The translations under genes and the position numbers were made by a program. From Elusimicrobiota bacterium (GTDB lineage Bacteria; Elusimicrobiota; Elusimicrobia; F11), in the NCBI GenBank assembly GCA_022072025.1, contig JAJVIP010000027.1:149846-213845 (forward strand): a DNA stretch of 64,000 bases. The letters run 5' to 3'. The notes beneath the pieces are model-generated. The model had not been told where the DNA came from, searched no databases, and worked only from the letters and a program-made list of their open reading frames with translations. The stretch's first letter is position 1. Each line of letters opens with the position of its first letter. This document shows positions 10,001-38,609 of the stretch, one piece after another.

Positions 10001-13000
10001 TCACCTCAGAGATGCGAGCAGAAATCTCTGATTCTCCTTGAGGGGACAGGGTCCATTCCCAGGTCTGAGTCGACTCGAGTTCGTATGCTTCGCGAATATT
10101 CCTCTCCAAGTCATACCCCTCAGGCAAGTGTTCAATTCGGACCTTCTGACCGTCCTGGTTCGTAAGAGAAGTGGTATCCGCTGAAAAATAGGCGCGGGAA
10201 TCAGAAGACTTCATCAAATGCCCCAGCAACTCCACATGATGTGAAAAAACCTGTCTAACCATTTCATCTCGTCCATGAATATAGTTGGTTAAATCCCTGT
10301 TCATTGTATAGACAGAGCCAAACCGGCCTTGAAATGCAACTTCAATTTCGTGAAGAACAGCCCAAACCAATTGTGACACCAAAACAGAAGAGACAACATA
10401 GGACGATTTCAGTTCATTGATGCTGTGCGTAACAAAGTCCAGTTGAGTTAAAGCGAACAATTGCACCAGTCGATCAAGAACCGTTTTAGAATTTGGTCCT
10501 TTCTCGATTAGATCAAGCCCCGGTGTTAATATTTTCTCCAACACTCCCCCCGATATATCCCAAACAACCAGATCGATTTTTTGTTGCAATTCTTCCGAAA
10601 GTGCCCCTTTAGCGCGATTCATGGATTGAATATCAATATCCACCAAGGTTATCCGCTGAAATTTTTGGGCCAAATCATCCAAGAACCCTTCTTTGACATC
10701 ACTCGAACCAAGAATGACTGCCCGGTCAAGGGAGACCCCATCTGCCCCCTCCAATATCATTCTTTTGCTGCTTAACAGGTGTGCTGCCCAAGAACCTCCG
10801 CTATTGGCATGCCGACGCGCATATCCATTTCCCCATTGCTCAGCGATTTTCTCTACAACTTCATTTCGGCTGACCTGAAAAATAGCTCCCAAAAATGCCC
10901 CAGAAAGGAGGGTGCGAAAAACCTCCGTTTCATTTCCGACAATCTGAGGAATGAAAAAAAGAAAAAGAATCGTCGCAACCAACAGCCCACAATTGAAGCC
11001 AATGGATATCAACAAGACTTGTGCCATCGCGATTTTGCTGAGACCGCCAGCCACAGCCAAAGATTGGATGTGATTGTTTTGGTCATAGGCCAAGACGAAT
11101 CGGAATAAACTTGCGCCGGATGAAACAGTGACTTGGATGCCGTTGATCAATGATTGATATCCCTTCACGCTCCAATCTGAAATTCCCCTGAGGACGGCGC
11201 GGAACCAGTCGGACACGAGCTTTGGGTCAAGGCCTGCGCGCAAACCATCCGCGGCCATCAGAACAGCCGTTTGCCTGCGGAACGAAGGGTTTGCAACCGG
11301 CAATGAGAGGAACAGTTTTTCCCCGGCAAACAATGTGTCGAGCGGGGTTTTCTGTTGGGTAAAAACACTTAAATACACAGGGCCCTCGCTCATCTCGATT
11401 TGTGTGATTTTGGGGACGAAGGTGATGACGGTGTGCCCCGCTTCAACGAGGCGCCGGTCGATGCCACGGGAGTGGAAACCACCGGTGACCAGAACAGCCA
11501 GTGAGTGATCAACCTCCATTCCCTCACCGCTTGCCGGTGATACAGAATTTACAACAGGGAGCTGGGGAAGGGCCCCTCCCAGCCTCCCCACTGAGAAACG
11601 TGGGGAGGAGTCGGAGTGTGACAATTGCTTTAATAAATTGATCGCCATTTTCACGTCGCGGATTTCCGCTTCACGGTAAAAGTCCTCAAATGCTCCCAGT
11701 GCCTGATTACCAGAAACCGTCTTTTTGTATGCCTCCCACTCGTCTCTCGTCAATGAAAAATCCACCAATTTCTCCATGAGACTCAGCCGCTTTGATGCCG
11801 CCACCAGTTCGCGTTCTTGCGGCGTTTTACAGAGAAGGTTGTAAACGGTTGTTTCCAGGCTCGCCATATTTGTCATCAGCGCATCCACGTCAACACTGTC
11901 CGCTAGAAGAATATATCGGAAGTAATCATCCATTGCTTTGTAACGGGCGAGGGGCCATCCCTGCTCGTGGCAAAGATCTTTCAGGTATTGATAGAAAGTT
12001 GCGTGATTAATGGCCCCTGTTCGAAAGGCCGCGCCGGCCTTGGCAAGGTCAGCGGCCTCCTTCGTACTTAATTTTTTCGACAAATCATTGAGAAGAAGAG
12101 ATCGTTCATGTTCCACCTGGGTGAAATTGAGGGACCTCTCCAGCCTGATTGCTTCTAGGAATGTGGACACCACAAAGGGCAAATCAACAAGATGGCGACT
12201 CACGAGTTCAACATACACGCCCATCTCGATTTTCCCTTCGCTATACAGCTCAATCTTTCCATCAAAATCCAGAAGCGTCTGATTAAAAGTTTTCCTTTTC
12301 TCCTGGCGGATGAATTGCTTGGCCCCATCCAATCTCCGGCGGACCTCTCCCTTCAACCGGCTGCTCTCCCGCACCGCGCGCACGTTGGCTTGATAGTGCG
12401 CTTTATCGTCGATCCCCGTAACGAAAGGCAAAAACTTTTCAAGTTTAGAGTTTGAGATTTGTGATATCGAGCTTGCCGTCAATACCGCGTACAGGGGTCC
12501 CGCAATTTTATTTTCACGAAGCAGATAATCCGCCACGGTGCGCACGGTTTCCGGGCGTGGAAATGTTCGAAATGCGTCCATGTCGATGGGTCCGAAAGCC
12601 CCTTCCAAGGCCAAACAACTCAGTTGGTTTTTGGTAATTAATTCCCGAATCGCCGCCGCGATATTTTTCTGCGCTTCGGCATCCATATGGATATCTTGGA
12701 TGTGAATGATAGTTCGAGGTTGAGAATTTGGTGATCGGGGTTTCCTGATTTTCCGAATGGTTCCGTATCGGAGGAGGGGCTGCATATTTTCAATATTCAA
12801 CTGATCAATCGACTCGGGGACGAGTTTTTGATTTTCATTTAACTCCCATTTTTTCAATGACTGCTCGTTGGAATTATCGAATTTTGAAAATTTATTGAAA
12901 GCGGAGGCGGCCTGTCGTTCCTTCCAGAAATTGGTTTCGAGGGCGTGCGCCAACAAGCCATTGGTGCTTGCATAAACAAGACACACAACCACAGACAGTA

Positions 13001-22179: not shown

Positions 22180-22199
22180 GAATACCTATTTCATACCCC

Positions 22200-22345
22200 T
22201 CCCTACCCTCCCCACTGTAAAGCGTGGGGAGGGATTCAGAAATTTCTCAACGGTAAAGCGTGGGGAGGGAATACTGAGATTTCTTGACTGTGGAAAGTGG
22301 AGAGGAATTCCTCCCCACGTCGTCCAGTGGGGAGGTTAGGAGGGG
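22200..22345. repeat. Cluster of REP-like palindromes
   Basis: Contains CCTCCCCAC/GTGGGGAGG (22207-22215/22224-22232), a lone GTGGGGAGG (22260-22268) and a second hairpin (22310-22318/22327-22335). They fill the gap between the convergent DUF559 gene and giant gene 2, and may serve as terminators for both. Confidence 0.8.
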
Positions 22346-22353
22346 TTTCCTTA

Positions 22354-25300
22354 TCAGGCAGCCGAAATTCGACTTCGCAAGTGGCGCATATCCAAATGAT
22401 TTTTTCTGCTTCTCGGATCAGTGGAATCACGATCAGTTTTAAGACTGATTTCCGGCCGGGCCTGCCAAAATTGCCAGGGGAACACCTCTTTGAAATATTC
22501 ATTGGCGTTGTTTATTAAATGGAGGAACGCCACAGGAATCATGGCCAGTTGGAGGGCTGATTCGGTGGACACCCCGCCCCCCATCAATCCCCAAGCCGCG
22601 AAGAAATAAATGATCATGAGGAGGGCGAATAGTTGAAGGTCTTTGTGAAGGCTTCTTTCTGCTCTGGATTTTTCCGTAACGTGGTGCAAAAGCGGCAGCG
22701 CCAGAAGCTGGGTCAAAACTCCCACGATCAACAGAACCCTATTTCCATCGACCAAGCCGTATCCAATCATCCAGAAGGGGAGGACTGTTTCCAAAACCGG
22801 CAGGACCAAGAGATCCAAAACCGCATCCACCGCTTCATTCCCGGTTGAGAGGCCAAAGGCCTTGCGGAGGCTGGCCGTCTTGCTCTTGTGCTCAGGTGTG
22901 GAGAGAATTTTATCGGGCACATGTTCAAGCACCTCCCAAGGAACCCTTAAATCCGGCCTTAATCCAAGTTCTTGCATCGTTTCATGATCATCCAATTGGC
23001 GAGTTTCAGTGTTGAAACGACGATAATTATCCGTAACGGCTTCCTTGATTCGTCCAAATGGAGACCCCCCGAAGGTGTACCGGCCACCTTTGACCAATGT
23101 TTGAAAACATCCGATCAACACCATATTTTCCTGAGGTCTTGAGATCGCCACATTCACACGCTTGAGACCCTCCTCCTCTCCAAGGAACCCGATCCGACCC
23201 TCGCGGTTGCTGCGTGTGGTGGAGAAAATAACGACATCAGATTCCTGGCCTTGGGCAGCATCGACCGTGAGGAGTTTAAACACGGGTTGACCGCGCAATT
23301 CGACCGCCGATTCAGGTTCAATGTCTCGTTTGCGTTTTTCCTCATCTTCCAGAGTGGGCATCGCAGGCACATCCTTGACGCCCATCATGTTTTGTCCCCT
23401 AAAAACCAAAGAACCGAGTCCATAAAACCTTTCCATCAATTGCTGAAGGCCTTGTTTTGAATTCGATTGCCCATTTTTCCTAATTGTAGTGATAGACGCC
23501 CCAAATGAATTTTCAAATACCCTCCCGGCAATTTCCAAGGCTTCTAACCATTGCGCTTCTGGGACTTCTCTCTCCTCCCTCACATCATTGAAGACAGCCG
23601 TCATAAAAAGCAACTGGTGTATGAGTTTGTTCTGTCCTGTGTAGGGCGAAAGGATCAGAATATCCTCTGGCTTTTTGCCTTTCTTCAAGAAATACGCCGC
23701 GGCCTTCACAACCTCCTTGGCCTCCATGATATTCACCCATGAATCGTTGACCTTTTCTTCCCTTTGAACCGGCGCGTTTTCTTTCTTATCCAAATCAATG
23801 ATCATATATGTGTCCGGCTCTAAAACTTCCAAGGGTCCGTCAAAATTTCGATGACGCAGCAACCCGCCGTAAAACACTTGGTTGAAAACAGACAGGGCCC
23901 AATGTCCGCGTCTTAAAACTTTAAGAACGTAAATCGGCAGCCCGCCCCACCGTTGGGCATGGTTGAACGCATTTTCTAAAGGCGAGATCCGCTGGCCTCT
24001 TTTGGCTTCGGTGGAATATATTTCCTCCAAAGGCCAGACTGAATCAAAACCATACGTTTCCTCAACGTATATTTCATCAATCACATCGTCTTTCATTCCT
24101 GCGGCAGGAAGTTGCTTGGGGTCTCCGACAATCACCAGCTGCTTGGGTTCCAATTCATTGATGGGTATCAAGGTTTCAGCCGTGTCAGCCATGGAAGCTT
24201 CTTCCTGGATCACAATGGGTCTGATTCGGTCGAATGTTTGATTCCCAAACGCACCGGGACCCTTGCCGTCCTGCTTCGGTTGGCCATTCCCATTGGCGGA
24301 TTGGGACCGTTCGAGAGAATTCATGGTCCAACGGTCGTACAAAACGCGCGTTTCTGCCAGTGACCCGGATTCCAAGTAGCGCTTCAAAAGGGCGAAACAT
24401 TGTCGATCGCCGACCAAGCCATTGTTCGTGGCCAGATAGACAAAGCCCTGAGCAGTTTTCGAATGTTTTTCAATGAGCCGCATGAGCCGGTCCAAACGTT
24501 GCGCATGACTATGATACTGGGTCAAAACCGGATCAATCTTTCGATCGTCGGAGCCCGTGCGAATAAATGGAACCGGCCCGCGATCTGTTTTATTTTCCGG
24601 AAGGTCGCTCCCCATCAGCTTTTTCCCGACATTGTCCAGACCGAAATTGGATTGGTTCGTTACAATCACAATCTCCCCTCGTTTGACCGATTGCCTCACC
24701 ATTTCTTCTATCAGGGTGGTTTTCCCAGCTCCGGGAGGCCCTTGAACCAGACAGACCGACGGTTGACCGCTGACAATCGATTCCAACGTCTGTTTCTGCG
24801 CAGGATCCTTCTCCAGGTCAGTGTTTTCAAACTGAAAAGGCGTTACGGACGATGGAGGGGTTTCAGGTTTTAGATCAAACCCAAACAAGCGATTGAGAAG
24901 AGGCAATGTCAAGGGGTTGGACGAGAAATCACCCTTTCTTACGGGAGGCTCCAATTCTCGCGTGGCCGAGTTGAGCGCGTTCAATTGACGATGACTCTGG
25001 ATATCTTCTGAATAATTAACAGTGGCTTTTTGGGACTTCAGGTGTTTCATCGCTGGAGCAAACGAATCCGCTTCTCTTTTATCCATCGAAAATTCCAGAC
25101 CCTGACCGGAACGATACCCGCGATATTGAGCGTGAACCACCCAACGCTTTCCTTGGCCATCAGACCAGACAAACCGATATTCTGAGGGCGCACTCACCAT
25201 AGGAGCGTCGGCGATTCGAACTTTCTTATTGGTATCGTCCAAAGCCTCTGCGGTAGAGCCCCCCACCAGCGTCCATTGCCGCAACGTTTTCCATTGTTTT

Positions 25301-28300
25301 TTTGGCTGAGCTGGTTTTGAATTGGGTTTTCCTGATTTGACTTTTGTCGGGACCTGAAACAACTCCATTTGTTCAACACGCATGGAAGAAACAAGGAGCT
25401 GGTTTTTCTGATGATCAAAATCCCAATCCCCACCTTCCATGGTAAACACGACAGATTTGGGATCATATTGTTCGCTGGAGTCGGTCGATCGCTGTGTTCG
25501 ATGAAGGTCCGCGTCCAATTTTGTTGAGAGAATCCGCGCGTGTTGAATCAGAGAGCGATAAACTTCCAACCGTCTCGCTTGATCTCTCAATCCCATGGCC
25601 TTTTCGCGATAAGTTTTATTTTGGGCCTGCGCATAAACCACGTAGGCCAAGTCTTGGGCCTGCGCGAATCGGCCCTGCCCCCGGCCAAATTGATCCAGTT
25701 CCTTTCGACCTGTCGCGATAAACCCCTCAGCAGTGTTCAATAAAAAATTGCACAACGGGGTATTTTCGGAGTTTAACTCCAACGCTCGTCTAAACTCTTG
25801 AACAAGTTGATTCCACAAAAGGCCCATCTTCAGATTTTTATCCCTATTTCCAGAATCCTCCTTTCTTTTCCATGCGCGTGGCATGCTTTTCAAAATCTGT
25901 TCATGAGTGGTGAAATTCTCCCGAGCGGTATTCTCATGCTTCTTTGATTCAGCGATATCGGCCTCCGCTTTAACTTTCAATCGCGACAAAACCAAGTCAT
26001 GCGGATAATTTGAAAAGCTCTTCTTAATTTCATCAAGCAAAGAGAGGGGACCCATCTCACGTTGAAGGGACCGTGCTTGTAAACTTCTCACCGCCTCCAT
26101 ATGGATTTCCAGCGAACGGGCCTCTTTGTGCTGAGGCGACCTTTTGGCTTCCGATAAGGGATGGGCAACATCCTCCCAATTCCCCTCTTGGTAACTGATC
26201 CAAGCCTTTTCGAGCGCCTGCCGATAATCACCCGTCAAACGATCATAATCGGCGACCATCGCGCCTTGGGGATCAAGGGAGTTCAATTCATCTGGGTTCA
26301 TATCTTTTACTAGAGACTGCACAAGTTCAAAATCGAAACGCGACAGACCGCCCAATGCTCTCTTTAAAATCTCCTGAACCTTTGCCCTGCGTTCCGCCTT
26401 TCCCCTCCATTCGGCTATCACTCTCTCAAGTTTTGTTCGGTCCACCTCCTTCGCCATCGCCAAAAGCTCTACGGCCCGATCTGGATTCAAGGGGGCCATC
26501 ACCTCAATTCGATGTTCCCACTCTGCGCCCGTCAGAGGGGTTTGCATGGTCAACAGCAGCCCATCTTTGGCGTTAACGATCCTGTCGCGGATTCTCTGAG
26601 GGAATTTTGGGTTGAGGCAAGCTCGATCCAAAATTTCAATCACCTCAAGTCCAGGAAGGAGCGACGCCACGGTCACCATTTGGCCCAATTCTTCTGGTGA
26701 CAGGTTTTGATCGCTGGCGCCATACTCCACCAGACGTTCCTGCAACACCGCTAAAAACACTCCGAAAAAAATACTGGATTGAATCAATGATTTGGCGACA
26801 AATTCGGCCTTGTACCGAGCCGGCAAGTGTTCGGTTCGAAACATGACCAATTGGCGGACCGCGGAAGACCGAAGGCGTTTCAAGCGCACTTCATCTATTT
26901 CATGTCCATGGATCAAGGCCTGGTCGGCCACGATTATTTTCCAGGAAGCGGCTTCCTCGGTTGAAATCATCGGTGCGATTCGCTCAATGAGTTCCAGCGC
27001 TGGACCAAAATCTCCTGTTTGACGCGCCTTGAGGACCGCTATTGCAAAAGGCACCTGATGGGCATTGCGACCAAAATAATTGCTAAGCCTTTCGAGAACT
27101 GTAAAGACTTGGTTCATTATTTGGTGATCTGGGTTGAAGTCCGAGGCAATTTTCACGATCGTTAATCCATACCCTCTATTCATCAAATCACGGATATCCA
27201 CCTTGCCGGATTCATCGGATTCAGCCCACTGCAAGATCTCTCCCAATCTCGCCAATTTCCTATCAGATGGTCCCTCTTCGATAAACGCCAAAGGCATATA
27301 ATGAGATATTAATTGGAACCTCTCTTGAAGTGACTTCCCAGGCTGGACCAACCTCAATTCCGCCAAATGTTGTTGCACATCCCTGTCATCCGGTCGGTTT
27401 AATAGGGCTCGTTGAAATGATTTTTCTGCATCGGTATTCCGACCCAACATCCATTGAATGTTCCCTATGAGGGGCAAGAATTCATTTTCCCCTTGAGACA
27501 CGAATCGCGTCAAAATCTCTAAAATGGAATTCCCAACTGATTGCGATTCCTTTGGGTCTGTCCATTTGCCTTGCCTAAACAACTCGCAGGCCCACGCAAA
27601 ATTTCGGTGAAGATGGGTGTTTTTGGGTCCTCCCTCTCTCTGCAACAATGACACACCCGCCATAATCCCAGAACGAACATCATCCCGGCGTAGCGCCCCA
27701 TAAAGGGGCCATTGCTGCTCAAAAACCGTATAACTACCCGGAACGAAATTGTTAAACGGAACGCGCACAAGGGGCCAGGCTCTTTCCAAAGCCTCTCCCA
27801 TCCCCAAAGCATTGGCCAACTCCAAAAGGGGATTCAACCTGGTTGTAGAGTAATGATATTCAGTACCTATTTCTACTAATTGATCCTCCAACGCTTGAGG
27901 GTCCGCTTGGGGCCCACTTTTATATTTTGAGATTTCAGTTTTAATATTGGCATTGGCCTGATTGGAAATTCGCTCCAATTGATCCAAAGTATCCTGAATA
28001 CGAGGGCGAAGAGCTTGAATAATAGGAGAATGCTCCAAAGATACCAATCTTGAGGGTTCGAATTCCGGGATACAATGCTTCCACTGAGAAGGGAGATGTT
28101 TTTTCCACTCCGAACTACGAGAACGGTAAAAGTCGGGCGCCGCGCAGTAAACAAATCGAAAAAAAGAAAGACGTTGAAGAGGCGTCAATTTATCCCAATC
28201 TCTCCTTTTCATAAGTTGCTCAATAATGGGAAGAAGTATTTCCAACTGTTTCGGGTTGAAAGATTTAAGAATGCTGAGTTGATCCACTTCTCGAGGATCC

Positions 28301-31300
28301 AAGATTGTTACTTGGAAGGCCTGGAGCAAAAATCCTTTGGCCTCTTCGAGACGATGCTGAGTTGCGCAAACCAATGATTTCATAGCGAATCCCAATTGTT
28401 GATGTTCGGCTTGTTCGAGCCCTCCCCAATCCTCATCAGAAAGAGGGGTATTAATTAACCGATCTGCAATTTGGTCTGCTTGGTCATACTCTTTGAGAAA
28501 TAAAAGAGAAAAAAACCGGAGATTTTTAAGAGCGATGGCCAACCGAGGATGTATAACGCCATCAGTTTTTTGAAGGGCCAGACGCGCTAGAGGGGTTTGT
28601 TCTTCGGGGACCATATTCCCCCCCTCTCTTGTGGCCCTGATCAACTCAAGATTTCCTTCAGCCAAACTGATGGCATCAGAATGAGTCCTTGCCCTCCGAT
28701 AAAATTCAATCAGAAAATCATAATCAATCCGCCTATCACCATTTCTGAAAAGGATTTCCAAGAGGTCAAAGTACACCCAGCGATAGAATTCATAAGATTT
28801 TCTTTCATTTTCATTGCTCCAATTGTTGAGTTGGGTATAGATTAATTCGACCGCGGACAATTCCTGATCGGTTACCGGAATCCCATCGCGAACCTTAAAA
28901 TATAAATCTAAAAGGTCCAGCTTATTTCTCATTTCCGGACTTAACGCCACCTCAATGCCTGGATATCGTTCAATTATTTTTCGAATAAGTTCACGAACAA
29001 GGCGGGCATCGTCGATATTTCCATAGTCAATAATATTACCGACAAGGAAAACCATTTGCTGGAATAGACTTCCCCACTCCTCCGTTGTTCCGCCCAAATC
29101 TTTGAGTCGTTCGAAACTGAGATAAACAAAAGGTTCTTCGGCATGAAAAATTTTAGCCCGTTTCGATATTTTTGTTCTGAGAACTCTATAACGGATGGCA
29201 TAAGCACGTTCTAACACCTCAAATCTGACAGGAGTTACATGCGTTCGGCACACCAAATCAGCCAGATGAAGGGCCATAGAAGAGTTCCCGACCTCCCAAA
29301 AATCGTTTGCCATGTCCAGCAACAGTCCATAAACATCCTGCGGAAGAAAGGCAAACGCTCTTTCCGTTTCACCACGATTTAACCCCTTCATCAACCCACC
29401 ATCTATGGCGTCTGCCAAATGAGAATCGCCGTTTGTCCGGTGCTCCGTGGAAAGGATGCGATACATGGCAACCATCTCGCTAAAAAGCAAAAGGGCGGAA
29501 GGATCCAACGCCCCAGCCTTTTTGGGGAATCCATCGAGGGCAGTATAAATATCCTGTTCCACCACCAGGGACAGCTCTTCGGGAGTGAGTGAAAGAGAAG
29601 TCAGCGCCATTTTCAGGGTGGAGCGAAATGGGTCGGATAACTTCCCAACAGTTTCCAGAAGCCCAATAAATTTTCCCCACACCGTATTCAATCCGGAAAG
29701 GAGGGTTTTATCTGAAGCGGCTTTCCAAGCAGCTGCCTCTTGTTCGACGGACTTCTTAAGATCGAACCTTTCTTTGAAAAAGTCAAGAATCACTTGATGG
29801 GCAGGATTCGTCGCATCTTCTCCGGCCACTCGCACAAACGCTCGAATATACAGGGGCGACACATCGACTTCGCCATCCGTCAACAAGAAATCAGCGCTTT
29901 CAAAACAATACTCTAGAACAGCCATGAGATGCTCTGAACTCAATCCGGAATTCTGAATAGCTTCGACCAGTGCGCCTTCAACTGCGGAAGCCAAAGCTGG
30001 TTCCGTCTGAGATAAAAGCAAGAAATGTGCCGCAATAGTTGTTGATTCCCCAAGCACTTCGGAAGTTCCAGCATCGTTAGACTTGATCGCCTCTATCATC
30101 TTCGCAAAAGAGTTCCGAAATTTTTCTTTCATCACTGAACTTAAACCGCGGAGGGCAGCCTCTCGGCTGACCGGATCCGCAATCAGGGGAGAATGAACCA
30201 ACAACACCATTTGATGGAGGCAGCCATAAATGTGAGCCAGTCTTTCCTTCTCAGCCACCGGCGTATAATCATACGCATCAACGAGTATTTTTGCGTCCTC
30301 TCTTACATGATATTCCCATTCATCGGGGGAGAGAGAATGACGTTGATAGCTCATAAAAAGATCAGGCCACAATTCAACTGCATCAGGGTCAAACAGCAAA
30401 TATTCTGAAGGGCGAGTTGAATCTAAAACGCCTTCAACATTTTTTTGTTGATGTAAATCAACGGCCGTCTGGGCCAACAATTCAATGGCGACTTTTTTTC
30501 CTCTAACAAATGTTTGCTTGAACACATCGCTTTTATTTTCTGAAAGCCGCTTTATTCGAGGGAAAAACTCCCGCAAAGAAGAATAAGTCAATGAATAGGT
30601 AAGGACTCCTAAAACTTTGAATATTCTCTCCATTGGGATTGAACTTGCGTGATTCAAATTATTCTCTAATTGATCCAAAGCCATTTCATAGACTTTTTTG
30701 GTTATACGCGGATTTGATTCATTGTTGTCGGCTATAAATTTCCCTAGTGCCACATAGGCCCAGTAGCCAACTCCCATTTTAGAGGTCAAATAATTGGGAT
30801 TTTTCAAAACCAAATTAAAAAATGGGACAGCTTGCTCTTCTTTCAATTTTTCTAAGGCATTTAATGAAAAGCTCGCGGCAACTTGGCTGTTACCTTCAAT
30901 AATATCCTCATAAACATATTGCAGCGAAATGGATATCAGGAAGGCATGTACCTCATTAAAATGTTCAGATGTTTGAACTAGAAAATTTAACAATTGATCA
31001 ACAAGCAACGCCTTTTTTGTAAGTGGCAATTTATAGACATTTCCAATCAGTCCCTCGATTCCAATAAATTGGCTCTCTTCTCCATTATTTTTCTGCGCCA
31101 AAATACCCCATATCTTATCGACCCGGTCCACAAAAGTTTGCAGGGCCTCGACCTTGGCCTGTTCATCAAAAGTTTCCAATGCATTCATTAAATGCTCAAT
31201 CATGGTTCTGGCCATAAGGGCTTTTTCTTCAGGTGTGGAGTTAAGAATCAATTCTGTTTCAGGATTGGAATTGGCCATCCCAACCATCCATGGGAAAGGG

Positions 31301-34300
31301 ATAAACCACAAGGAAGGCTCGCGATAATCAAACGGCGCCCACATCCAAAAAAAGAATTCCACAGTCGCCAATAACGAAAGAACAATAAATACCCACGGTT
31401 TATCCATCACGCCCACAAGTCCCGCAGCAAACATTAACGGAAGGGCCGAGAGAAGCGGAGACCCGATGAGGTTCCGGACAAAATTCGTGAAATTTATGTT
31501 CTGATTTTGCACAGGGGGTCGAATCAATGACTCAGAAACCCCCAGAGACCGAACCTTGGGAAAAAATTTTGATGAGGATGGCTGTGCCGGCTGGAGAGAA
31601 CCCTTACCCATCTCCCGCGCGTCGAAGGCGGCGTGGAAGAGGATGGCCAAGGCAAAGGCGGTGAACAAGAGGGCCGTGGATATCAGCGGGAAAGGAAGGA
31701 CCAGAGCCAGGGCGGGGACGAACAAGGGGGCCAGGTAAAGGGAGAAACCCATCAAATGATGAGAAAAAGTCTCGAGGCCGTTAACAAAAGAGGGGTCCCC
31801 TCGCGGGAGACTGGATTTATCCAAGCGTTGATTCTTCCGGAACTGGTCGAGTAAGGTGTGCAGCCAAGACGCGGCGACCAACAAAAGTCCCATTGTGCCC
31901 ACCGCGGTCCAACTAAACGAGACGGCATACGGGTTCACCAACACTCCCATCCAGGACCCCGTCAAGAGATGCGACGCAAAAAACACCAACCCCAAGGCCT
32001 CAAGCCCCATCGAAACCCACCCCACCCCCACCGCGTGCCGCCGCCCCCAAGCCCCCCACAACCCCAACTGCGCCAAGGCAAAACCCAAGGAATTGGGTTT
32101 TCTACCTGCCTGAGTTTTCTTTGCGGGCCAGTGATCGGGCCGAGGTCCGACATTCACATGTTCTGGAAACTTTAATTTCTCAACAGCCTGATAATTCCCG
32201 GCCTGGTACCTTTTACCCCGTGGATCGGAGGCAATATTGCGCACAGCCCAGCGACAGGCATCTGCAACAATGGCGCTGATATTTTTGGGGTGTTTGACGT
32301 CCACCAAGGATTTCGCGCCAATTTTTTCTAAATCTGATTCAGAAAAATTTAGATATCGCAAAAGATGCTGGAGGATTAAAAATTCTATGGCATACGTGAG
32401 ATATTGATCTTGGTTTTGAACGTACTCTTTTAGAAACAAGGGGCGTGCAAGATTTTGAATAACTTTTAACTGTTGTTGATCGATCCATATTTTTCGATAG
32501 CAGGTATCAACAAAGGAAATGGGGTTTGACTGAATCCCTTGGGGGACGCTAATCAATTTAATTCTGAAATGATCCTCAGGGTAGACAAAATAGAGCCGCA
32601 GCATATCTCCGAGGATTTGCTCCATCTTTTTTTGGTCCTCGGCCGAACCTGGGGAAAATTCGACAATTTGCATCACATCATCCAGAAACTCCGGGTAACC
32701 TTTAACGAGATTTTGCAAAGCACTTGCCAATGAAGTGATCAGTTGGGAAATAACTATTTGATTCAATCGATCCGTTGAGAGTGAATTCTTTATTTGAATC
32801 AATTTGTTGGTTAGGGAATACATAGAAGGACGATAAAATTCGACGACATCTACAATTTCATTTATTTTTTTTATCGAATCCTCAGGCTTCCCCTCCGCTG
32901 CCGGCTTCAAGATGCAATGAGAAATTGTATTGAAGGGAACCCTTTCGGTCCACCCATTAAGATCAACTCCCCACCGATGGGCTGGTAAGTTATACAAGGC
33001 ATGGCCAACAAACTGCGCCACATACACCGGCCATACCACCAGTTTCCAAGACCAAGAAAGTGGTTGATGGGGGTTCGTTTGGGCCCAACGGAACACAAAA
33101 ATCAACGAGATCTGCCACCAAACGAACAGAACCGTCCAAAACCCCAGGAGAGGAACTGCCCAAACCCAGGCGAACCCCAACCCCATAAAAGGTGTTATCC
33201 ATAGAAATGCGTGGAGGCCCCAGAGCGCCGCCAAACGCACCTTCGTCTGCCAAGCCTGGCCTTTGTGCGCCCACATAAATTCATAGGGATGGGTGAGCCA
33301 ATAAAAAACCCTCAAAAACTCCTGGTCCGGCGCGTCGAACAAATGGCTTCCCACTGGTTTCTTCCAACGGCGCATTAATTCCCGGATAAAGGCTTTTTTC
33401 AGCAAGAAATCGGCAAAATCCTTTTCTTTTTCCCTTATGAATTCAGGGCTTCTCGTAATTTCACCTTTTCTTATTCGCTCAAAATAACGTTTTAATTGAA
33501 GGATAGGACTTAAACAACCCTTTAAAACGTGAAGAAGACGATCGCTATCGGAAGATAATTCATTCAAATATCGGCGCAATTTTGACGGAAGATTTTCATT
33601 ATTTGCGAGATAAGGTTGCAGTGAAGATGACTCTGAATCCCTCGCTATTTTCATAAAAACTGCGGCCAATTCATCCAAAGAATAAAACGTTAATTCCTGT
33701 TCGATTGTTTTCTCTTCGTCCTCCATCGGCCACTTTGAGGGTGGTTGGAGGCTGGGGTGGGACATTTCAACCCCATCCTTTACATGCCAGTCAATAACCT
33801 GGTTCCATTTTTGATCAAACGTTTCACCCCTGCTGTTCAGCAAATATCTGTCCGCGTTCATCTCCCGCGCGTCAAAGGCGGCGTGGAAGAGGATGGCCAA
33901 GGCAAAGGCGGTGAACAAGAGGGCCGTGAATATCAGCGGGGAGGGAAGGACCAGAGCCAGGGCGGGGACGAACAAGGGGGCCAGGTAAAGGGAGAAACCC
34001 ATCAAATGATGAGAAAAAGTCTCGAGGCCGTTAACAAAAGAGGGGTCCCCTCGCGGGAGACTGGATTTATCCAAGCGTTGATTCTTCCGGAACTGGTCGA
34101 GTAGGGTGTGCAGCCAAGACGCGGCGACCAACAATAGTCCCATTGTGCCCACCGCGGTCCAACTGAATGAGACGGCATAAGGGTTCACAAACACGGTCAT
34201 CCAAGATCCCGTCAAGAGGTGCGAGGAAAATAACACCAATCCCAAGGCCTCAAGTCCCATGGACAACCACCCCATCCCCACCGTGTGCCGCCGCCCCCAA

Positions 34301-37300
34301 GCCCCCCACAACCCCAACTGCGCCATCACATATCCTAGGGAATTGGGTTTGCCCTGCTGAATTATTTCAGTTTGGTTTGTATGGGGGCCTCCGTTGATAT
34401 CCCTTACTTGATTGGGAATCTTCCCCTCTAAATCGAGTTGGTTATGGGTTTGAATGATATTTTCTGAGGAGTTGGAGCGAATTTGAAACGAAAACGAAGA
34501 GGATCCAGATTGTTGGTCCAACATGGTTGAAAGAGGTTGGAAATCAAACGATCCCCCAAAATCATTTATCTGCGTTGGACTATAGGTAACATTAAAAAGC
34601 CGTAATAAATCGCGGACATTGTCCTGGGGCGACACAAAGGGATGACGGGTTCGAACTCCGGGAAATCTAAGAACAAAACAATGGGCAAGTTCTTCATAAA
34701 TTGGGAATTGATATTCGGGGGGGACCTCCACATGATATAAGGATATGCTTTTCTCTTCCAGCCTTGCATCGATGTTGATACCGAGCCCGATCTTTTTTTT
34801 GGGCGATATCTTGGATTCAGCGATCCTATGGAGAACTTTTTTGATGAAATCTCTGAAAATAAGTTCCAGGTTCAAGGCATTATTTGCAGGGTTTGAATTT
34901 CCATCAGATTTGGTGAGACGCAAATTCAAATCAAGAGGAATTTCTTTTTCTGGCTTTAAATTCAATTCCTCTACGAGATGGTTTTCATCTTCTTTCCGCG
35001 TCGTTATTACTTTTGAAAATATTGTATTTAGCTTTTGATTCAACGCTTGGTCTTGTGCAGCTGCAATTTGCACCTGCATAATTTGACCTGCTGGTTCAGT
35101 CTTCGCTGGTGAAGCGGCGCCGCGCCATCTCTTCTTTCCTTGCTTTCGATTGGATATCGGATTGTTTTGTTCTTCATCTCTTTCTATCGAATTTCTTCTC
35201 TGAAAGTCATTCATCAGTTGGGTAAATTCATTGTCCCCAATTCCCACGCCCGAGAGGGAAATGGATTTCAAAAGGGACATGACTTCGGATTGGTTAATTA
35301 AATTCAGAACAACATCTACTTCAATATTGTTCTCCCTAAGTAATTTTTTAAAATCTTGATTTCGATGCGCCATGTTTTGATCTGGGTTCTTTCTTGGATG
35401 CAACTTAATGGCTTCTAACGCCAAAGCATAAATCCGAATCGCCGAAGGAGTAAGGTTTGAATTCTCGGGGAAAAACCAAAGTTCGGACTGTTGATCAGAA
35501 AAATTTTTTTGGAAAGAGGGGATCAAATCAGGGTCACACCTCCCCAAGATCTCTTCAAATTTTTTTCTTGTTAAATTAAAACCATTTTTGACCTGGGCTT
35601 CACATTGAGACCATATATTTTTGATACGTTCTTTTGGGCCTTTGGTAAATTTATCCATGGATTTTTCTGAGGGGACGAAATCATTGGACCCTGTAATAAG
35701 GGTCGAAAAAACCATCATTTGAAAACCAAGAAATGAGAGAACCACCTCCCATGTTTCCACCGATCCCAGAGGGAGTCCCGCCCCCCAGCCTGCCAAAACC
35801 CCTCCCAACAACGTTCCCGCCACCACCGGGATAGACCCCTTCCCCAGAGGCGCCAACACAGTGCCGGTGAAAGCGCCTTTTTCCTGGGCCAACCGCGTGT
35901 AATCATGCCTCAACCACGGCCACATTCCTCCGCGAGGACTCAATTGATCTGCCCTTCGCCCCCCATCAACCCAAGTTCGTCCCAAGTTCAAATGACCCCA
36001 TTGTTTGGGAGAAAGATCAGCGCTGATCTTAAAGAAGTCAAGGGCTCCATACAACGGAGCCACTTTTCCGGGGCTTGAATCCCCGGAAAAGTACTGCGAA
36101 GAGGTAACCCCGGACTTACGTCCGGGGCTTCGGCTGCTGTCAAAAGTCAGGAGGGCGCCTTTTTTGACCCGTTGGGCTGAACGTAAAACAAGTCGGCGGG
36201 GGCCTTTCCAAAAAACCCACCCCCAAACCCAGAGGTATTCAAACAAAACCGTACCTTTGGCCGTGGCTTCCGCCAAGATCAAAATTAATCCGCGATTGAA
36301 AGCCGCAAAAGAAATACCGGGTTCCGCCAAGAAAAGTTTCTGACCCTCAAACAATTTGTCGAGCGGGGTTTTTTCTTGCGCGAAGGCGCTTAAATAGGCG
36401 GGGCCCGTTTCCCCTTCCACGCGCGTCACACGCGGAACAAAATCAACCACGGTCAAACCAGCCTTCTCAAGAAGCCGATTGATGCCGTCTGAGTGAAAAC
36501 CCCCTGTGACCAGAACGGCAATACTTTGTTCTTGGTGCTGAGAGCTCGGGACAAGGAATGCCTTAACCTTCTTCGTTCCAAGAGAGACTGTTGCGAAAGT
36601 AAGCTTTAAGCCGTCATCCCGGCAATCTTTTGGCCGGGATCCAGGTTCACCGTCGGAAGAAAACCTGGGCCCCGGCCAAAAACATGCCGGGGCGACAGCG
36701 TTTTTTACAGTACCTTTAGGTACGAATTTGTCCATTTCACAACTGTCCCCAAGAACAGCCTTTAGGAAGTTTTCCGCCATCTTTTGGTCGCGCCGTTCAG
36801 CCTCGTGGTAAAAATTTTCGTAATTGGCAGTTGGCGCAAGAAACGAATTGTTTTTCCTCGTGCCAGGGACTACCGCTTTGTATTCCTCCCACTCCTCTTT
36901 TGTCAGAGAAAAATCCACCAATTTCCCGACCAGATAAAGATACCGCGACTTTTGAATGAGCGTCTTTTCCTCTTCGGTTTTGATCAGAGCGGAATAAATT
37001 GATTCTTCTGTTTTTCTCATCTCCTCGAACAATTCTTCGGGATCGATTTTCCTCGATAGAAATAAGTAGCGAAGATAGGTCTCCATCATTTCCCATTTGG
37101 AATTGTTGACATGGTGGAGGGCGCAGATTTGTTGGAGGGTGGAATAAAAATCCGCCAGTCCCAAATGACCCAGGCGAACTCGAATACATTGATCCCTAAA
37201 CAAGCGGGATTCTTCAGCGGAAAGGCGGGACGCGAGGACCGACAACAATTCGTCACGTTCCCGCTCCACTTGTTTGAAATCCAATGTTGATTCAAGATGA

Positions 37301-38259
37301 ATAACCTCAAGAAAATTGTTGATTTGTTGTTGAGACGAACCCGCTGGTTCATTCGTAAACCCTTTCGCCAACTCTCGAACAAATGTCCCCAAAGGCATTT
37401 CCGCATTTCGAAAAGCCCCGACCGCACGGTCAAATTTCAACAATTCAGAATTTATCCGTTTTTCTTTTTCCAACTCTAACGCAGAAATCTTCTGCTCCAG
37501 ATCTTCTTTCAATTTTTTTTGAAGGGGGGCGGCGGCGAGATAGTTGGCCACGTTGGCGGCATGATGGGCCTCGTCGTCAATTCCCATTATTTTTGGAAAA
37601 GAAGAGTTCGACTTAATTACAGAATTTTCTTTGGAAGAATGGCGCCACGGACTGGGCAGAGTCATCAACGCGTGAATGGGCCCCGATATCCCTCCATTTT
37701 TCAACAAATAATCCGCTGTCTTCTTAACGATTACCTGGTCCGGGAAAATTCGGAAGGCCGTTAAATCAATCTCACCGGAAGATCCTTCAAGGGCCACCAA
37801 GGGGGTTTGATTATTTTCCACCAACGTCCGAATGGCTTTCCCAATATTGCTTTGCGCTTCGTGATTCTTGTGGATGTCTTGAATATGGAGGACCATTGGC
37901 AGATGAGGATGACCGGAAAGTCCCCGCCTCACTTTTCGGATGGTTCCATAGGGCAGGAGCGCCGCTAAATCCAACCCTTGCGATTGATCTAGAAAGAGGG
38001 AAGGGTTCGAATTATTTTCCGGTGACCCCGAAAGCGTCTGGAATTGCGAAGGGTTCACCTTCGAAGTGATATTTCCGAGAAAATGAACCGGCAAATGTGG
38101 AAGAGCCGCCATTTGAGAGGGGGCTTGACGCGTTGAACCCGAAGCTTTTTTTCGTTCGTTCCAAAAATTAATTTCAGCGGCGTGAATAAAGACGCAATGG
38201 GTCAAAAAATACAGGACCGTGAGCGCAGTGGGAATACCCTTTTTACAGATGAATGACAT
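22354..38259 (-). CDS. Giant exported membrane protein 2 with UPF1-like helicase (5,301 residues)
   Basis: An uninterrupted frame that I do not recognise as a whole. A signal-like segment (residues 8-27) leads to an N-terminal domain paralogous to giant 1: HIQDIH near 126, ALEGSSGEIDL, and LVTGGFHSDGI near 583. Hydrophobic helices lie near 820-860. A multi-helix membrane module occurs twice (about 1303-1467 and 2053-2217) from near-identical DNA. Residues ~2250-4300 are mainly helical, with TPR-like units such as GRNTDAEKSFQRALLNRPDD near 3590. A superfamily 1 helicase of UPF1 type follows: Walker A GPPGAGKTT ~4507, motif II QEEAS ~4682, GDPKQLPA ~4711, DAAQGQESDVVIF ~5000 and RVNVAISRP ~5036. 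Three or four membrane helices close the protein. No Shine-Dalgarno is visible before the ATG at 38257-38259. A nucleic-acid helicase in an apparently exported membrane protein is unexpected. Confidence 0.8.
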   Translation of the reverse strand: MSFICKKGIPTALTVLYFLTHCVFIHAAEINFWNERKKASGSTRQAPSQMAALPHLPVHFLGNITSKVNPSQFQTLSGSPENNSNPSLFLDQSQGLDLAALLPYGTIRKVRRGLSGHPHLPMVLHIQDIHKNHEAQSNIGKAIRTLVENNQTPLVALEGSSGEIDLTAFRIFPDQVIVKKTADYLLKNGGISGPIHALMTLPSPWRHSSKENSVIKSNSSFPKIMGIDDEAHHAANVANYLAAAPLQKKLKEDLEQKISALELEKEKRINSELLKFDRAVGAFRNAEMPLGTFVRELAKGFTNEPAGSSQQQINNFLEVIHLESTLDFKQVERERDELLSVLASRLSAEESRLFRDQCIRVRLGHLGLADFYSTLQQICALHHVNNSKWEMMETYLRYLFLSRKIDPEELFEEMRKTEESIYSALIKTEEEKTLIQKSRYLYLVGKLVDFSLTKEEWEEYKAVVPGTRKNNSFLAPTANYENFYHEAERRDQKMAENFLKAVLGDSCEMDKFVPKGTVKNAVAPACFWPGPRFSSDGEPGSRPKDCRDDGLKLTFATVSLGTKKVKAFLVPSSQHQEQSIAVLVTGGFHSDGINRLLEKAGLTVVDFVPRVTRVEGETGPAYLSAFAQEKTPLDKLFEGQKLFLAEPGISFAAFNRGLILILAEATAKGTVLFEYLWVWGWVFWKGPRRLVLRSAQRVKKGALLTFDSSRSPGRKSGVTSSQYFSGDSSPGKVAPLYGALDFFKISADLSPKQWGHLNLGRTWVDGGRRADQLSPRGGMWPWLRHDYTRLAQEKGAFTGTVLAPLGKGSIPVVAGTLLGGVLAGWGAGLPLGSVETWEVVLSFLGFQMMVFSTLITGSNDFVPSEKSMDKFTKGPKERIKNIWSQCEAQVKNGFNLTRKKFEEILGRCDPDLIPSFQKNFSDQQSELWFFPENSNLTPSAIRIYALALEAIKLHPRKNPDQNMAHRNQDFKKLLRENNIEVDVVLNLINQSEVMSLLKSISLSGVGIGDNEFTQLMNDFQRRNSIERDEEQNNPISNRKQGKKRWRGAASPAKTEPAGQIMQVQIAAAQDQALNQKLNTIFSKVITTRKEDENHLVEELNLKPEKEIPLDLNLRLTKSDGNSNPANNALNLELIFRDFIKKVLHRIAESKISPKKKIGLGINIDARLEEKSISLYHVEVPPEYQFPIYEELAHCFVLRFPGVRTRHPFVSPQDNVRDLLRLFNVTYSPTQINDFGGSFDFQPLSTMLDQQSGSSSFSFQIRSNSSENIIQTHNQLDLEGKIPNQVRDINGGPHTNQTEIIQQGKPNSLGYVMAQLGLWGAWGRRHTVGMGWLSMGLEALGLVLFSSHLLTGSWMTVFVNPYAVSFSWTAVGTMGLLLVAASWLHTLLDQFRKNQRLDKSSLPRGDPSFVNGLETFSHHLMGFSLYLAPLFVPALALVLPSPLIFTALLFTAFALAILFHAAFDAREMNADRYLLNSRGETFDQKWNQVIDWHVKDGVEMSHPSLQPPSKWPMEDEEKTIEQELTFYSLDELAAVFMKIARDSESSSLQPYLANNENLPSKLRRYLNELSSDSDRLLHVLKGCLSPILQLKRYFERIRKGEITRSPEFIREKEKDFADFLLKKAFIRELMRRWKKPVGSHLFDAPDQEFLRVFYWLTHPYEFMWAHKGQAWQTKVRLAALWGLHAFLWITPFMGLGFAWVWAVPLLGFWTVLFVWWQISLIFVFRWAQTNPHQPLSWSWKLVVWPVYVAQFVGHALYNLPAHRWGVDLNGWTERVPFNTISHCILKPAAEGKPEDSIKKINEIVDVVEFYRPSMYSLTNKLIQIKNSLSTDRLNQIVISQLITSLASALQNLVKGYPEFLDDVMQIVEFSPGSAEDQKKMEQILGDMLRLYFVYPEDHFRIKLISVPQGIQSNPISFVDTCYRKIWIDQQQLKVIQNLARPLFLKEYVQNQDQYLTYAIEFLILQHLLRYLNFSESDLEKIGAKSLVDVKHPKNISAIVADACRWAVRNIASDPRGKRYQAGNYQAVEKLKFPEHVNVGPRPDHWPAKKTQAGRKPNSLGFALAQLGLWGAWGRRHAVGVGWVSMGLEALGLVFFASHLLTGSWMGVLVNPYAVSFSWTAVGTMGLLLVAASWLHTLLDQFRKNQRLDKSSLPRGDPSFVNGLETFSHHLMGFSLYLAPLFVPALALVLPFPLISTALLFTAFALAILFHAAFDAREMGKGSLQPAQPSSSKFFPKVRSLGVSESLIRPPVQNQNINFTNFVRNLIGSPLLSALPLMFAAGLVGVMDKPWVFIVLSLLATVEFFFWMWAPFDYREPSLWFIPFPWMVGMANSNPETELILNSTPEEKALMARTMIEHLMNALETFDEQAKVEALQTFVDRVDKIWGILAQKNNGEESQFIGIEGLIGNVYKLPLTKKALLVDQLLNFLVQTSEHFNEVHAFLISISLQYVYEDIIEGNSQVAASFSLNALEKLKEEQAVPFFNLVLKNPNYLTSKMGVGYWAYVALGKFIADNNESNPRITKKVYEMALDQLENNLNHASSIPMERIFKVLGVLTYSLTYSSLREFFPRIKRLSENKSDVFKQTFVRGKKVAIELLAQTAVDLHQQKNVEGVLDSTRPSEYLLFDPDAVELWPDLFMSYQRHSLSPDEWEYHVREDAKILVDAYDYTPVAEKERLAHIYGCLHQMVLLVHSPLIADPVSREAALRGLSSVMKEKFRNSFAKMIEAIKSNDAGTSEVLGESTTIAAHFLLLSQTEPALASAVEGALVEAIQNSGLSSEHLMAVLEYCFESADFLLTDGEVDVSPLYIRAFVRVAGEDATNPAHQVILDFFKERFDLKKSVEQEAAAWKAASDKTLLSGLNTVWGKFIGLLETVGKLSDPFRSTLKMALTSLSLTPEELSLVVEQDIYTALDGFPKKAGALDPSALLLFSEMVAMYRILSTEHRTNGDSHLADAIDGGLMKGLNRGETERAFAFLPQDVYGLLLDMANDFWEVGNSSMALHLADLVCRTHVTPVRFEVLERAYAIRYRVLRTKISKRAKIFHAEEPFVYLSFERLKDLGGTTEEWGSLFQQMVFLVGNIIDYGNIDDARLVRELIRKIIERYPGIEVALSPEMRNKLDLLDLYFKVRDGIPVTDQELSAVELIYTQLNNWSNENERKSYEFYRWVYFDLLEILFRNGDRRIDYDFLIEFYRRARTHSDAISLAEGNLELIRATREGGNMVPEEQTPLARLALQKTDGVIHPRLAIALKNLRFFSLLFLKEYDQADQIADRLINTPLSDEDWGGLEQAEHQQLGFAMKSLVCATQHRLEEAKGFLLQAFQVTILDPREVDQLSILKSFNPKQLEILLPIIEQLMKRRDWDKLTPLQRLSFFRFVYCAAPDFYRSRSSEWKKHLPSQWKHCIPEFEPSRLVSLEHSPIIQALRPRIQDTLDQLERISNQANANIKTEISKYKSGPQADPQALEDQLVEIGTEYHYSTTRLNPLLELANALGMGEALERAWPLVRVPFNNFVPGSYTVFEQQWPLYGALRRDDVRSGIMAGVSLLQREGGPKNTHLHRNFAWACELFRQGKWTDPKESQSVGNSILEILTRFVSQGENEFLPLIGNIQWMLGRNTDAEKSFQRALLNRPDDRDVQQHLAELRLVQPGKSLQERFQLISHYMPLAFIEEGPSDRKLARLGEILQWAESDESGKVDIRDLMNRGYGLTIVKIASDFNPDHQIMNQVFTVLERLSNYFGRNAHQVPFAIAVLKARQTGDFGPALELIERIAPMISTEEAASWKIIVADQALIHGHEIDEVRLKRLRSSAVRQLVMFRTEHLPARYKAEFVAKSLIQSSIFFGVFLAVLQERLVEYGASDQNLSPEELGQMVTVASLLPGLEVIEILDRACLNPKFPQRIRDRIVNAKDGLLLTMQTPLTGAEWEHRIEVMAPLNPDRAVELLAMAKEVDRTKLERVIAEWRGKAERRAKVQEILKRALGGLSRFDFELVQSLVKDMNPDELNSLDPQGAMVADYDRLTGDYRQALEKAWISYQEGNWEDVAHPLSEAKRSPQHKEARSLEIHMEAVRSLQARSLQREMGPLSLLDEIKKSFSNYPHDLVLSRLKVKAEADIAESKKHENTARENFTTHEQILKSMPRAWKRKEDSGNRDKNLKMGLLWNQLVQEFRRALELNSENTPLCNFLLNTAEGFIATGRKELDQFGRGQGRFAQAQDLAYVVYAQAQNKTYREKAMGLRDQARRLEVYRSLIQHARILSTKLDADLHRTQRSTDSSEQYDPKSVVFTMEGGDWDFDHQKNQLLVSSMRVEQMELFQVPTKVKSGKPNSKPAQPKKQWKTLRQWTLVGGSTAEALDDTNKKVRIADAPMVSAPSEYRFVWSDGQGKRWVVHAQYRGYRSGQGLEFSMDKREADSFAPAMKHLKSQKATVNYSEDIQSHRQLNALNSATRELEPPVRKGDFSSNPLTLPLLNRLFGFDLKPETPPSSVTPFQFENTDLEKDPAQKQTLESIVSGQPSVCLVQGPPGAGKTTLIEEMVRQSVKRGEIVIVTNQSNFGLDNVGKKLMGSDLPENKTDRGPVPFIRTGSDDRKIDPVLTQYHSHAQRLDRLMRLIEKHSKTAQGFVYLATNNGLVGDRQCFALLKRYLESGSLAETRVLYDRWTMNSLERSQSANGNGQPKQDGKGPGAFGNQTFDRIRPIVIQEEASMADTAETLIPINELEPKQLVIVGDPKQLPAAGMKDDVIDEIYVEETYGFDSVWPLEEIYSTEAKRGQRISPLENAFNHAQRWGGLPIYVLKVLRRGHWALSVFNQVFYGGLLRHRNFDGPLEVLEPDTYMIIDLDKKENAPVQREEKVNDSWVNIMEAKEVVKAAAYFLKKGKKPEDILILSPYTGQNKLIHQLLFMTAVFNDVREEREVPEAQWLEALEIAGRVFENSFGASITTIRKNGQSNSKQGLQQLMERFYGLGSLVFRGQNMMGVKDVPAMPTLEDEEKRKRDIEPESAVELRGQPVFKLLTVDAAQGQESDVVIFSTTRSNREGRIGFLGEEEGLKRVNVAISRPQENMVLIGCFQTLVKGGRYTFGGSPFGRIKEAVTDNYRRFNTETRQLDDHETMQELGLRPDLRVPWEVLEHVPDKILSTPEHKSKTASLRKAFGLSTGNEAVDAVLDLLVLPVLETVLPFWMIGYGLVDGNRVLLIVGVLTQLLALPLLHHVTEKSRAERSLHKDLQLFALLMIIYFFAAWGLMGGGVSTESALQLAMIPVAFLHLINNANEYFKEVFPWQFWQARPEISLKTDRDSTDPRSRKNHLDMRHLRSRISAA
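31609..32100. repeat. 492-bp internal repeat of giant gene 2 (copy A)
   Basis: Direct repeat of 33859-34350 with identical length and only scattered substitutions by eye. It encodes the membrane module beginning KPNSLG, with SFSWTAVGTMGLLLVAASWL inside. Plus-strand open frames here are shadows of the GC-rich repeat. Confidence 0.9.
33859..34350. repeat. 492-bp internal repeat of giant gene 2 (copy B)
   Basis: Partner of 31609-32100. Both ends coincide with the boundaries of the membrane module (KPNSLG to FDAREM in protein), so the unit that was copied is a whole domain. Confidence 0.9.
36013..36127. repeat. Four consecutive perfect hairpins inside giant gene 2
   Basis: AAGATCAGCGCTGATCTT (36013-36030) is a perfect palindrome. 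GGCTCC/GGAGCC (36043-36048/36056-36061), ACTTTTCCGGGG/CCCCGGAAAAGT (36062-36073/36081-36092) and CCCCGGAC/GTCCGGGG (36108-36115/36120-36127) follow. All are translated in frame without a stop. Confidence 0.85.
36612..36697. repeat. Composite CCGGC palindrome inside giant gene 2
   Basis: Three perfect stems in a row: ATCCCGGC/GCCGGGAT (36616-36623/36633-36640), CCAGGTT/AACCTGG (36641-36647/36662-36668) and CCCCGGC/GCCGGGG (36670-36676/36686-36692). It is in frame, about 35 residues before GGFHS. A diverged relative lies upstream of the gene at 38300-38480. Confidence 0.85.
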
Positions 38260-38299
38260 AGCGCGGCTCAGCAGTAACCCAACAAAGGATCAAGCATTG

Positions 38300-38480: not shown

Positions 38481-38586
38481 AAACATTACTTCATATAAAA
38501 ACAAGATCCACCGATGCCGTTTCATAGAGGGATCATTTAATAATTTCGATATTAAGATCCCCTTACGGACTTGTAAAAAAAATGTA

Positions 38587-38609
38587 AACGACCGACTTTT
38601 TTTACTGGC
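38587..38609. repeat. Direct repeat left of the pilin operon
   Basis: AACGACCGACTTTTTT plus TACTGGC recurs at 44473-44494 with one T fewer, in the same orientation. The right copy overlaps the tldD stop codon, so the left copy may be a duplicated scrap of the tldD end. Confidence 0.6.

Follow-up and report, generated by a model that had tools for sequence, protein, structure and literature searches.

A stretch of 64,000 nucleotides from an Elusimicrobiota bacterium (assembly GCA_022072025.1, contig JAJVIP010000027.1, positions 149,846 to 213,845; hereafter the window) contains a giant gene, P0001, which specifies a protein of 5,301 amino acids (aa) and carries a genuine superfamily 1 (SF1) helicase near its C-terminal end. 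The protein starts with an N-terminal domain (the head) and finishes with a short tail, and the significance of the finding is that the same two ends also occur on giants with unrelated enzyme domains between them. The explanation preferred here, held tentatively and with a little less than even confidence, is that P0001 is a membrane-tethered SF1 helicase, one cargo of a family of giants with a common head and tail, whose substrate would be single-stranded nucleic acid, handled on the cytoplasmic side of the membrane. A first-pass annotation, made from the sequence alone, had seen the fusion of helicase and membrane protein but overlooked the 28-gene family, the conserved C-terminal tail and the fact that the helicase is one cargo among many.

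A single open frame encodes an SF1 helicase

The unbroken frame of 5,301 residues described in the first-pass annotation was borne out: it occupies exactly 22354-38259, lies on the minus strand (the annotation had given none) and shows no internal stop across its 5,301 codons. That so long a frame should be open by chance is not credible, and comparable frames stay open in homologues. The helicase motifs quoted in the annotation were each found within three residues of the place given. The whole set, which we take to be motifs I to VI, starts in order at residues 4507 (I, GPPGAGKTT), 4685 (II, QEEAS), 4712 (III, GDPKQLPA), 4870 (IV), 4998 (V) and 5034 (VI, RVNVAISRP). The two profiles proposed as a check both scored above the Pfam cut-off of 27 (AAA_12, 87.4 bits, E = 1.2e-24; AAA_11, 65.5 bits, E = 8.4e-18), identifying a genuine SF1 helicase. 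The nearest solved chain by sequence was SMUBP-2 (4b3g, 2.3e-19), followed by UPF1 (2xzo, 1.5e-15). The likeness to the SF1B helicases UPF1 and IGHMBP2 (SMUBP-2) lies in the ordered motifs, the two Pfam profiles and this best solved match. Unlike those enzymes, the P0001 helicase sits within a giant membrane protein, and its motif II reads EE rather than DE; the Glu replaces the usual Asp in P0001 and in its homologue P0003, while a further homologue, P0005, retains DE. The NCBIfam model IGHMBP2 (TIGR00376) gave the helicase part 126.5 bits, below its cut-off of 348.9. An AlphaFold2 fold of the helicase (three aligned rows, pLDDT 42) was not used further.

The fusion of head and helicase recurs

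The search for homologues with the same fusion, also proposed in the first-pass annotation, revealed four further frames in which the N-terminal domain and the helicase are joined: P0003 (4,101 codons), P0005 (4,295), P0068 (7,335) and a frame of genome G017 (12,444). In 98 genomes (the source genome and relatives of its class) a helicase search picked out giant frames in G002, G017 and G042 and two in G023, one of which is a weak partial match; P0003 (the G002 protein), P0005 and P0068 came from the protein database. A profile of the N-terminal domain found it in P0001, P0003, P0005, P0068 and the G017 frame, and in neither of the two G023 frames (both cut by contig ends) nor the examined part of the G042 locus. 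Not counted as fusions were the frame on G023 contig C212 (4,242 codons), which holds the helicase and whose start lies beyond the contig end; that on G023 contig C135 (4,001 codons, cut), with a partial helicase match (9.4e-6) and no Walker A by pattern; and G042:C51 (a 2,680-codon frame), for want of the N-terminal domain in the examined part of its locus.

Residues 3800-5252 of P0001 align with P0003 (30.7% identity) and residues 3816-5265 with P0005 (23.1%), the alignments spanning the pre-helicase region, the helicase and a C-terminal hydrophobic module together. Because the three proteins align from about residue 3800 through this module, these parts look to have been inherited as a unit. 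A sample of 294 genomes from the phylum, searched with the P0001 helicase at E ≤ 1e-13, yielded a hit in G002 and a 655-codon solo helicase and, apart from the source genome, nothing else; this close helicase type is therefore rare there. A protein search with the P0005 C-terminus returned P0005 only; it missed the relatives P0001 and P0003, and is thus too insensitive to show absence. In a helicase tree, whose branches are very long, the P0001 type stood apart from the class's solo helicases of ~640 aa. The tree was used only for this separation: three of its rows (L034, L045, L053) are fragments of fused proteins that it also contains whole, a G042 row is included, and P0068 and the second G023 frame, neither of which matched the Walker A pattern, are left out.

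A common head in a family of giants

The N-terminal domain is common to 28 genes of the 3.64 Mb source genome, which specify 884 to 7,527 aa and are mostly giant; one of them (L086, 4,368 aa) runs off its contig. Another, P0002, lies in the window, and its domain shares 33.6% identity with that of P0001 over 714 columns (2.3e-100). At E ≤ 1e-60 the domain was present in 19 of 46 genomes, with 5 to 34 matches each (27 in the source genome); at this threshold there was none in the sampled genomes of families f2, f3, f5, f7, f8, f9, f10 and f13, nor in one genome of f4. A named collection yielded 79 loci (from the best 80 of 103), every one carrying the title Elusimicrobia bacterium or Candidatus Obscuribacterium magneticum, which falls within Elusimicrobiota in the taxonomy. 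The database also holds members named Omnitrophota.

The domain bears a weak resemblance to the TIKI superfamily (ChaN, EreA/Bcr135, TIKI, RRSP), suggested by weak matches together with an invariant D-x-H...E...H set. The ChaN profile matched 13 of 23 domains at E ≤ 1 (best 4.8e-5, a weak score), the piece from P0001 itself (residues 85-500) giving no match, and the PAH_ZNF598 profile matched 8 of the 23 (best 2.6e-5). The Asp, His and Glu were invariant in all 23 rows of alignment A1, whose rows were not picked by motif. They were also present in the 45 rows of alignment A3, 43 of which came from a search whose pattern fixed the Asp and the His; a second His (H509) was invariant in these 45 rows. 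The His-Glu pair is separated by 28 residues, and the spacing is likewise 28 in Bcr135 (H85/E113) and RRSP (H3902/E3930), according to the portion of PMC6254334 that was available. The complete 2His/2Glu set of RRSP is not present, the family having an Asp at the position of RRSP Glu 3900. A Foldseek comparison of a model of the domain with the PDB gave 93 matches at E ≤ 10 and none at E ≤ 1e-3, the listed rows being mostly long helices; the structural lead to TIKI came solely from a second look (VIA), in which the best rows, with weak scores, were Bcr135 (3b55, 2rad) and RRSP chains. The ChaN profile, the structural rows and the spacing make up the likeness. The domain departs from the superfamily in having an Asp where the first Glu would stand and a long helical insert separating its halves, and in its weak scores.

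Frames with the same N-terminal domain reach 10,906 (G006:C18), 12,118 (G001:C49), 12,444 (G017:C44) and 13,472 codons (G015:C16). What is apparently the same giant gene was seen twice in inverted orientation on one contig, with equal scores, at L096/L147 and L160/L161 (JAJAPZ010000001.1, JAJAPZ010000004.1), and also at G001:C49 and C82; these doubled genes possibly reflect mirrored assembly.

A conserved tail on proteins with unrelated middles

Conservation extends over the final ~15 residues of the giants, whose middles are unrelated. An Ala is the final residue in 70 of 88 giants (P0001, P0002, P0003, P0005 and another 84 proteins, P0010-P0093, recovered by searching with the head), and in 91 of 114 distinct tails of an enlarged set, or 91 of 113 when one frame running off its stretch is removed; a few database entries among the tails are marked partial. 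Counting back from the end, the preferences are A/S/Q at -2, I/V/L at -5, R/K/Q at -7, A at -9 and hydrophobic residues at -11 and -15, a pattern that an amphipathic helix would give. In the window and the named-genome loci together, Ala is the last residue of 35 of 40 open reading frames (ORFs) of at least 1,500 aa, compared with 20 of 256 ORFs of 250-1,200 aa in the same sequences, these controls being mechanical ORFs unverified as genes. The tail sets overlap and are not independent samples. Since the Ala codons at the end vary, we infer that selection on the tail acts on the protein rather than on a DNA motif.

Cargo of the sister giants

A Pfam scan covered 25 of the 28 members (P0001, P0002 and 23 sisters, L089 as a whole and 22 beyond residue ~500); the 7,527-aa gene lay outside it, and the cargo of L063 and L067 was known from database accessions. 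At least one Pfam domain above cut-off was held by 14 of the 23 sisters, and none by the other 9. The cargo comprised NUDIX; ResIII/Helicase_C; methyltransferase with FHA and PP2C; DUF4956 with a phytase-like domain; dockerin; protein kinase; AAA_5; glutamate dehydrogenase with PPDK_N; starch synthase; HEAT with cation efflux; adenylate kinase; nucleotidyltransferase; PALP with GNAT; and low-molecular-weight (LMW) phosphatase. The database accessions of other members presumably stand for transketolase, sigma factor, SNF2, PEP synthase, hexokinase and SecA, among others. Separate adenylate kinase and transketolase genes exist in the source genome (the only two cargos so compared), and the copies in the giants are therefore additional. 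Judged by eye, the nucleotide-binding and catalytic stretches are retained in the adenylate kinase inside the giant; the transketolase embedded in L063 is a partial copy (58.9 bits, positions 6-218 of 334).

A further transketolase N-terminal match, at G000:C2:425845-426621, has a TGA inside the matched stretch. The 4,998-aa sister L074 (G000:C2:17500-34500) holds an unrelated superfamily 2 (ResIII/DEAD) helicase, its motifs recognised by eye.

Candidate membrane segments and topology

A signal-like N-terminus and hydrophobic segments before and after the helicase, where the first-pass annotation had proposed membrane modules and helices, found support. In a hydropathy scan (19-residue window, Kyte-Doolittle value ≥ 1.5) P0001 showed 17 candidate segments, so the lack of membrane segments that would have counted against a membrane protein was not seen. 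They lie at residues 12 and 839, in clusters at 1369-1460, 1684-1722, 2077-2208 and 2264-2308, at 3821, and, three of them, after the helicase; that at 3821 falls within the helical region and may be soluble. The ~2,000-residue helical solenoid of the annotation is weakly supported, by composition and by a TPR match below cut-off (TPR_1, E = 0.025). From residue 3800 on, this region aligns with P0003 and P0005.

An N-terminal hydrophobic segment was present in 25 of the 28 family members, compared with 22% of control windows, and a signal peptidase (SPase)-like site preceded the conserved E-x-N-F-W stretch in 21 of 28; this pattern is loose, random anchors averaging 14 of 28 and reaching 21 in 2 of 500 draws. 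That both exceed their controls favours an exported head. In 61 of 113 proteins the head is followed within 160 residues by a hydrophobic segment, compared with 24.5% of random windows. The C-terminal hydrophobic module comprises four segments in P0001. The idea that it is common to all giants was dropped, P0001, P0003 and P0005 being the only matches at E < 1e-3 among 116 proteins; a CPBP-like protease was suspected by eye and dropped, as the Pfam scan of the stretch gave no such family.

The helicase is likely to lie on the cytoplasmic face of the membrane, since it needs ATP and since the C-terminal module is kept in three homologues. Near that module in P0001, 19 Lys/Arg residues fall in loops taken to lie inside and 1 in loops taken to lie outside, a difference that would put helicase and tail in the cytoplasm, although the loops were hand-picked and of unequal length, with acidic residues nearly as numerous. 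Other observations join this weakness in weighing against the proposed arrangement: P0003 and P0005 show only three C-terminal segments at the same threshold, which weakens the Lys/Arg argument, and the Lys/Arg flanks of the segment after the head are heavier on the N-side in 40 proteins and on the C-side in 17, which opposes export of the head. There is thus some conflict within the topology evidence.

Proposed mechanism and alternative explanations

The shared ends are best read as an address that would place varied cargo at the cell envelope. If so, the signal-like start would direct export of the TIKI-like domain, which might serve outside the cytoplasm as a hydrolase or a folded plug, and the remaining chain would cross the membrane in hydrophobic hairpins. 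The helicase would be kept beside the bilayer by the C-terminal hydrophobic module together with the tail, the tail perhaps being read by one partner common to all giants. Powered by ATP from the cytoplasm, the helicase would strip or pull its RNA or DNA substrate. A bolder proposal, which we regard as rather doubtful, is that the TIKI-like head and the ~15-residue Ala tail together act as a mark assigning dozens of unrelated giants to a single assembly bound to the envelope. These bacteria would then possess a relocated second set of cytosol-type enzymes that includes a nucleic-acid helicase and is organelle-like or delivered; if true, this would be an enzyme set without a described counterpart.

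Delivery of the cargo elsewhere is an alternative with some appeal, if a somewhat unlikely one: the giants would be exported whole, their cargo working outside the cell or in another cell (prey, host or neighbour) with ATP and NAD, and the helicase would be a delivered effector that handles nucleic acid. It would suit the N-terminal hydrophobic segments (25/28), the SPase-like sites (21/28, seen with random anchors in 2/500 draws), the conserved address at both ends, the duplication of ordinary genes by both cargo enzymes tested, and the tie of Omnitrophota giant proteins to attachment and predation drawn in the available text of PMC10066038. Many hydrophobic segments between the ends would, however, be expected to stop full export; in addition, the domain was not seen at E ≤ 1e-60 in the sampled genomes of eight families, f10 among them, and if the small f10 genomes are gut symbionts, which is a guess, the domain would not track host association. 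Defence against phage, among the roles listed in the first-pass annotation, is weaker than such delivery and in itself very unlikely. A COG1112/MkoA-like membrane helicase would here sense or attack phage nucleic acid, and the helicase part does resemble MkoA of Mokosh (4.5e-53) and MkoC (6.7e-16); moreover, the neighbouring gene at 19680-21695 encodes cyclic-nucleotide-binding and patatin domains, and its nucleotide-binding part (residues 28-141) matches profiles of Pycsar/TIR effectors (PycTIR 9.8e-12). The stretch matched best is, however, residues 565-648 of the query piece, which form the generic end of the helicase. Mokosh combines an MkoA-type helicase with a partner gene, and no partner was found among nine neighbours run against the same defence profiles; the architecture also differs, and the likeness is limited to the helicase domain. 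The nameable neighbours, which include HisS-like, TldD-like and MltG genes and sensor kinases, and the metabolic enzymes on sister giants speak against defence as well.

Two further accounts concern the origin and integrity of the gene. Lax stop-codon turnover might accrete neighbouring or captured genes onto a standard head, leaving the helicase without a dedicated membrane role. The very diverse cargo, the palindromic elements in frame, the two nearly identical internal modules (a duplication) and the partial transketolase of L063 would all follow, yet such drift is unlikely: accretion at the end would erase the last ~15 residues, which are kept across unrelated cargo, and the helicase arrangement is kept among P0001, P0003 and P0005 at 23-31% identity. 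That the helicase is a separate gene or a released polypeptide is hardly believable. Internal starts or proteolysis would be compatible with the sequence, but there is no stop between the ends, and five head-bearing frames (P0001 included) stay open to the helicase over 4,101 to 12,444 codons; the separate gene that, by the first-pass annotation, would have refuted the fusion was not seen, the four other frames keeping the two domains joined.

Relation to published giant genes

Giant genes in Omnitrophota and Elusimicrobiota have already been described (PMC10066038; PMC11573180; PMC12057145), the giant ORFs of Omnitrophota being, in the available text, poorly conserved and with few annotated domains (PMC10066038). 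Those published resemble the present giants in their thousands of residues, multiple predicted transmembrane helices and phyla; they differ in carrying adhesion, carbohydrate and toxin-like domains, the available portions of these sources making no mention of a TIKI-like head in common, of tail conservation or of a helicase. The same partial text sets a giant ORF of Omnitrophota at longer than 20 kb (PMC10066038); that of P0001, at 15.9 kb, is below this length, while a sister specifies 7,527 aa and a relative's frame has 13,472 codons. The two-ended architecture and the helicase cargo were not found in the literature searched by title and start of abstract, with bioRxiv preprints outside the scope. 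The giants described here form one family with recognisable ends and readable cargo, and their function is therefore testable. They raise the questions of what reads the tail, where the chain is located and why a helicase, an adenylate kinase or a glutamate dehydrogenase should be tied to the envelope.

Other features of the window

The features of the window are collected in Table 1.

Table 1. Positions of P0001, its parts and related features in the window
Feature	Position	Strand	Basis or remark
Giant gene P0001, 5,301 aa	22354..38259	minus	Single open frame, ATG to TGA
Signal-peptide-like segment, residues 1-27, predicted SPase-like site CVFIHA^AEINFW	38179..38259	minus	Pattern and family comparison
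Shared N-terminal domain, residues 104-665, predicted TIKI-superfamily fold	36265..37950	minus	D128, H130, E158, H589 invariant in aligned family rows
Palindromic dispersed element in frame, within N-terminal domain	36610..36699		Arms 38 nt, 79% complementary
Second short inverted repeat in frame, residues ~723-733	36062..36092		Similar peptide in sister giant
Hydrophobic module copy 1, residues 1304-1467	33859..34350	minus	Sequence search
Hydrophobic module copy 2, residues 2054-2217	31609..32100	minus	Nearly identical to copy 1 by eye
Helical region, residues ~2320-4330, putatively TPR-like at best	25270..31302	minus	TPR_1 E 0.025, below cut-off
SF1B (UPF1/SMUBP2-type) helicase, residues 4430-5115, motifs I-VI	22915..24972	minus	Pfam profiles, solved chains, motifs
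C-terminal hydrophobic module, residues 5128-5251	22507..22878	minus	Common to P0003 and P0005
Family C-terminal tail, residues 5287-5301, ending ...ISAA	22357..22401	minus	Tail comparison
Second giant P0002, 2,986 aa, tail ...GSA	4083..13043	minus	Same N-terminal domain as P0001
P0002 C-terminal tail	4086..4130	minus	Tail comparison

Dozens of genomic sites, spread over both strands, match the translation of residues ~500-575 of P0001. The palindromic element at 36610-36699 is similar to in-frame palindromic elements of Rickettsia; it had no match in a plasmid collection. An Rfam scan of 21500-39000 gave no match at the gathering threshold. Three genes at 38805-44313 could not be named. The gene at 19680-21695, whose patatin domain is of the phospholipase type, adjoins a gene for a Crp-like regulator (18887-19603).
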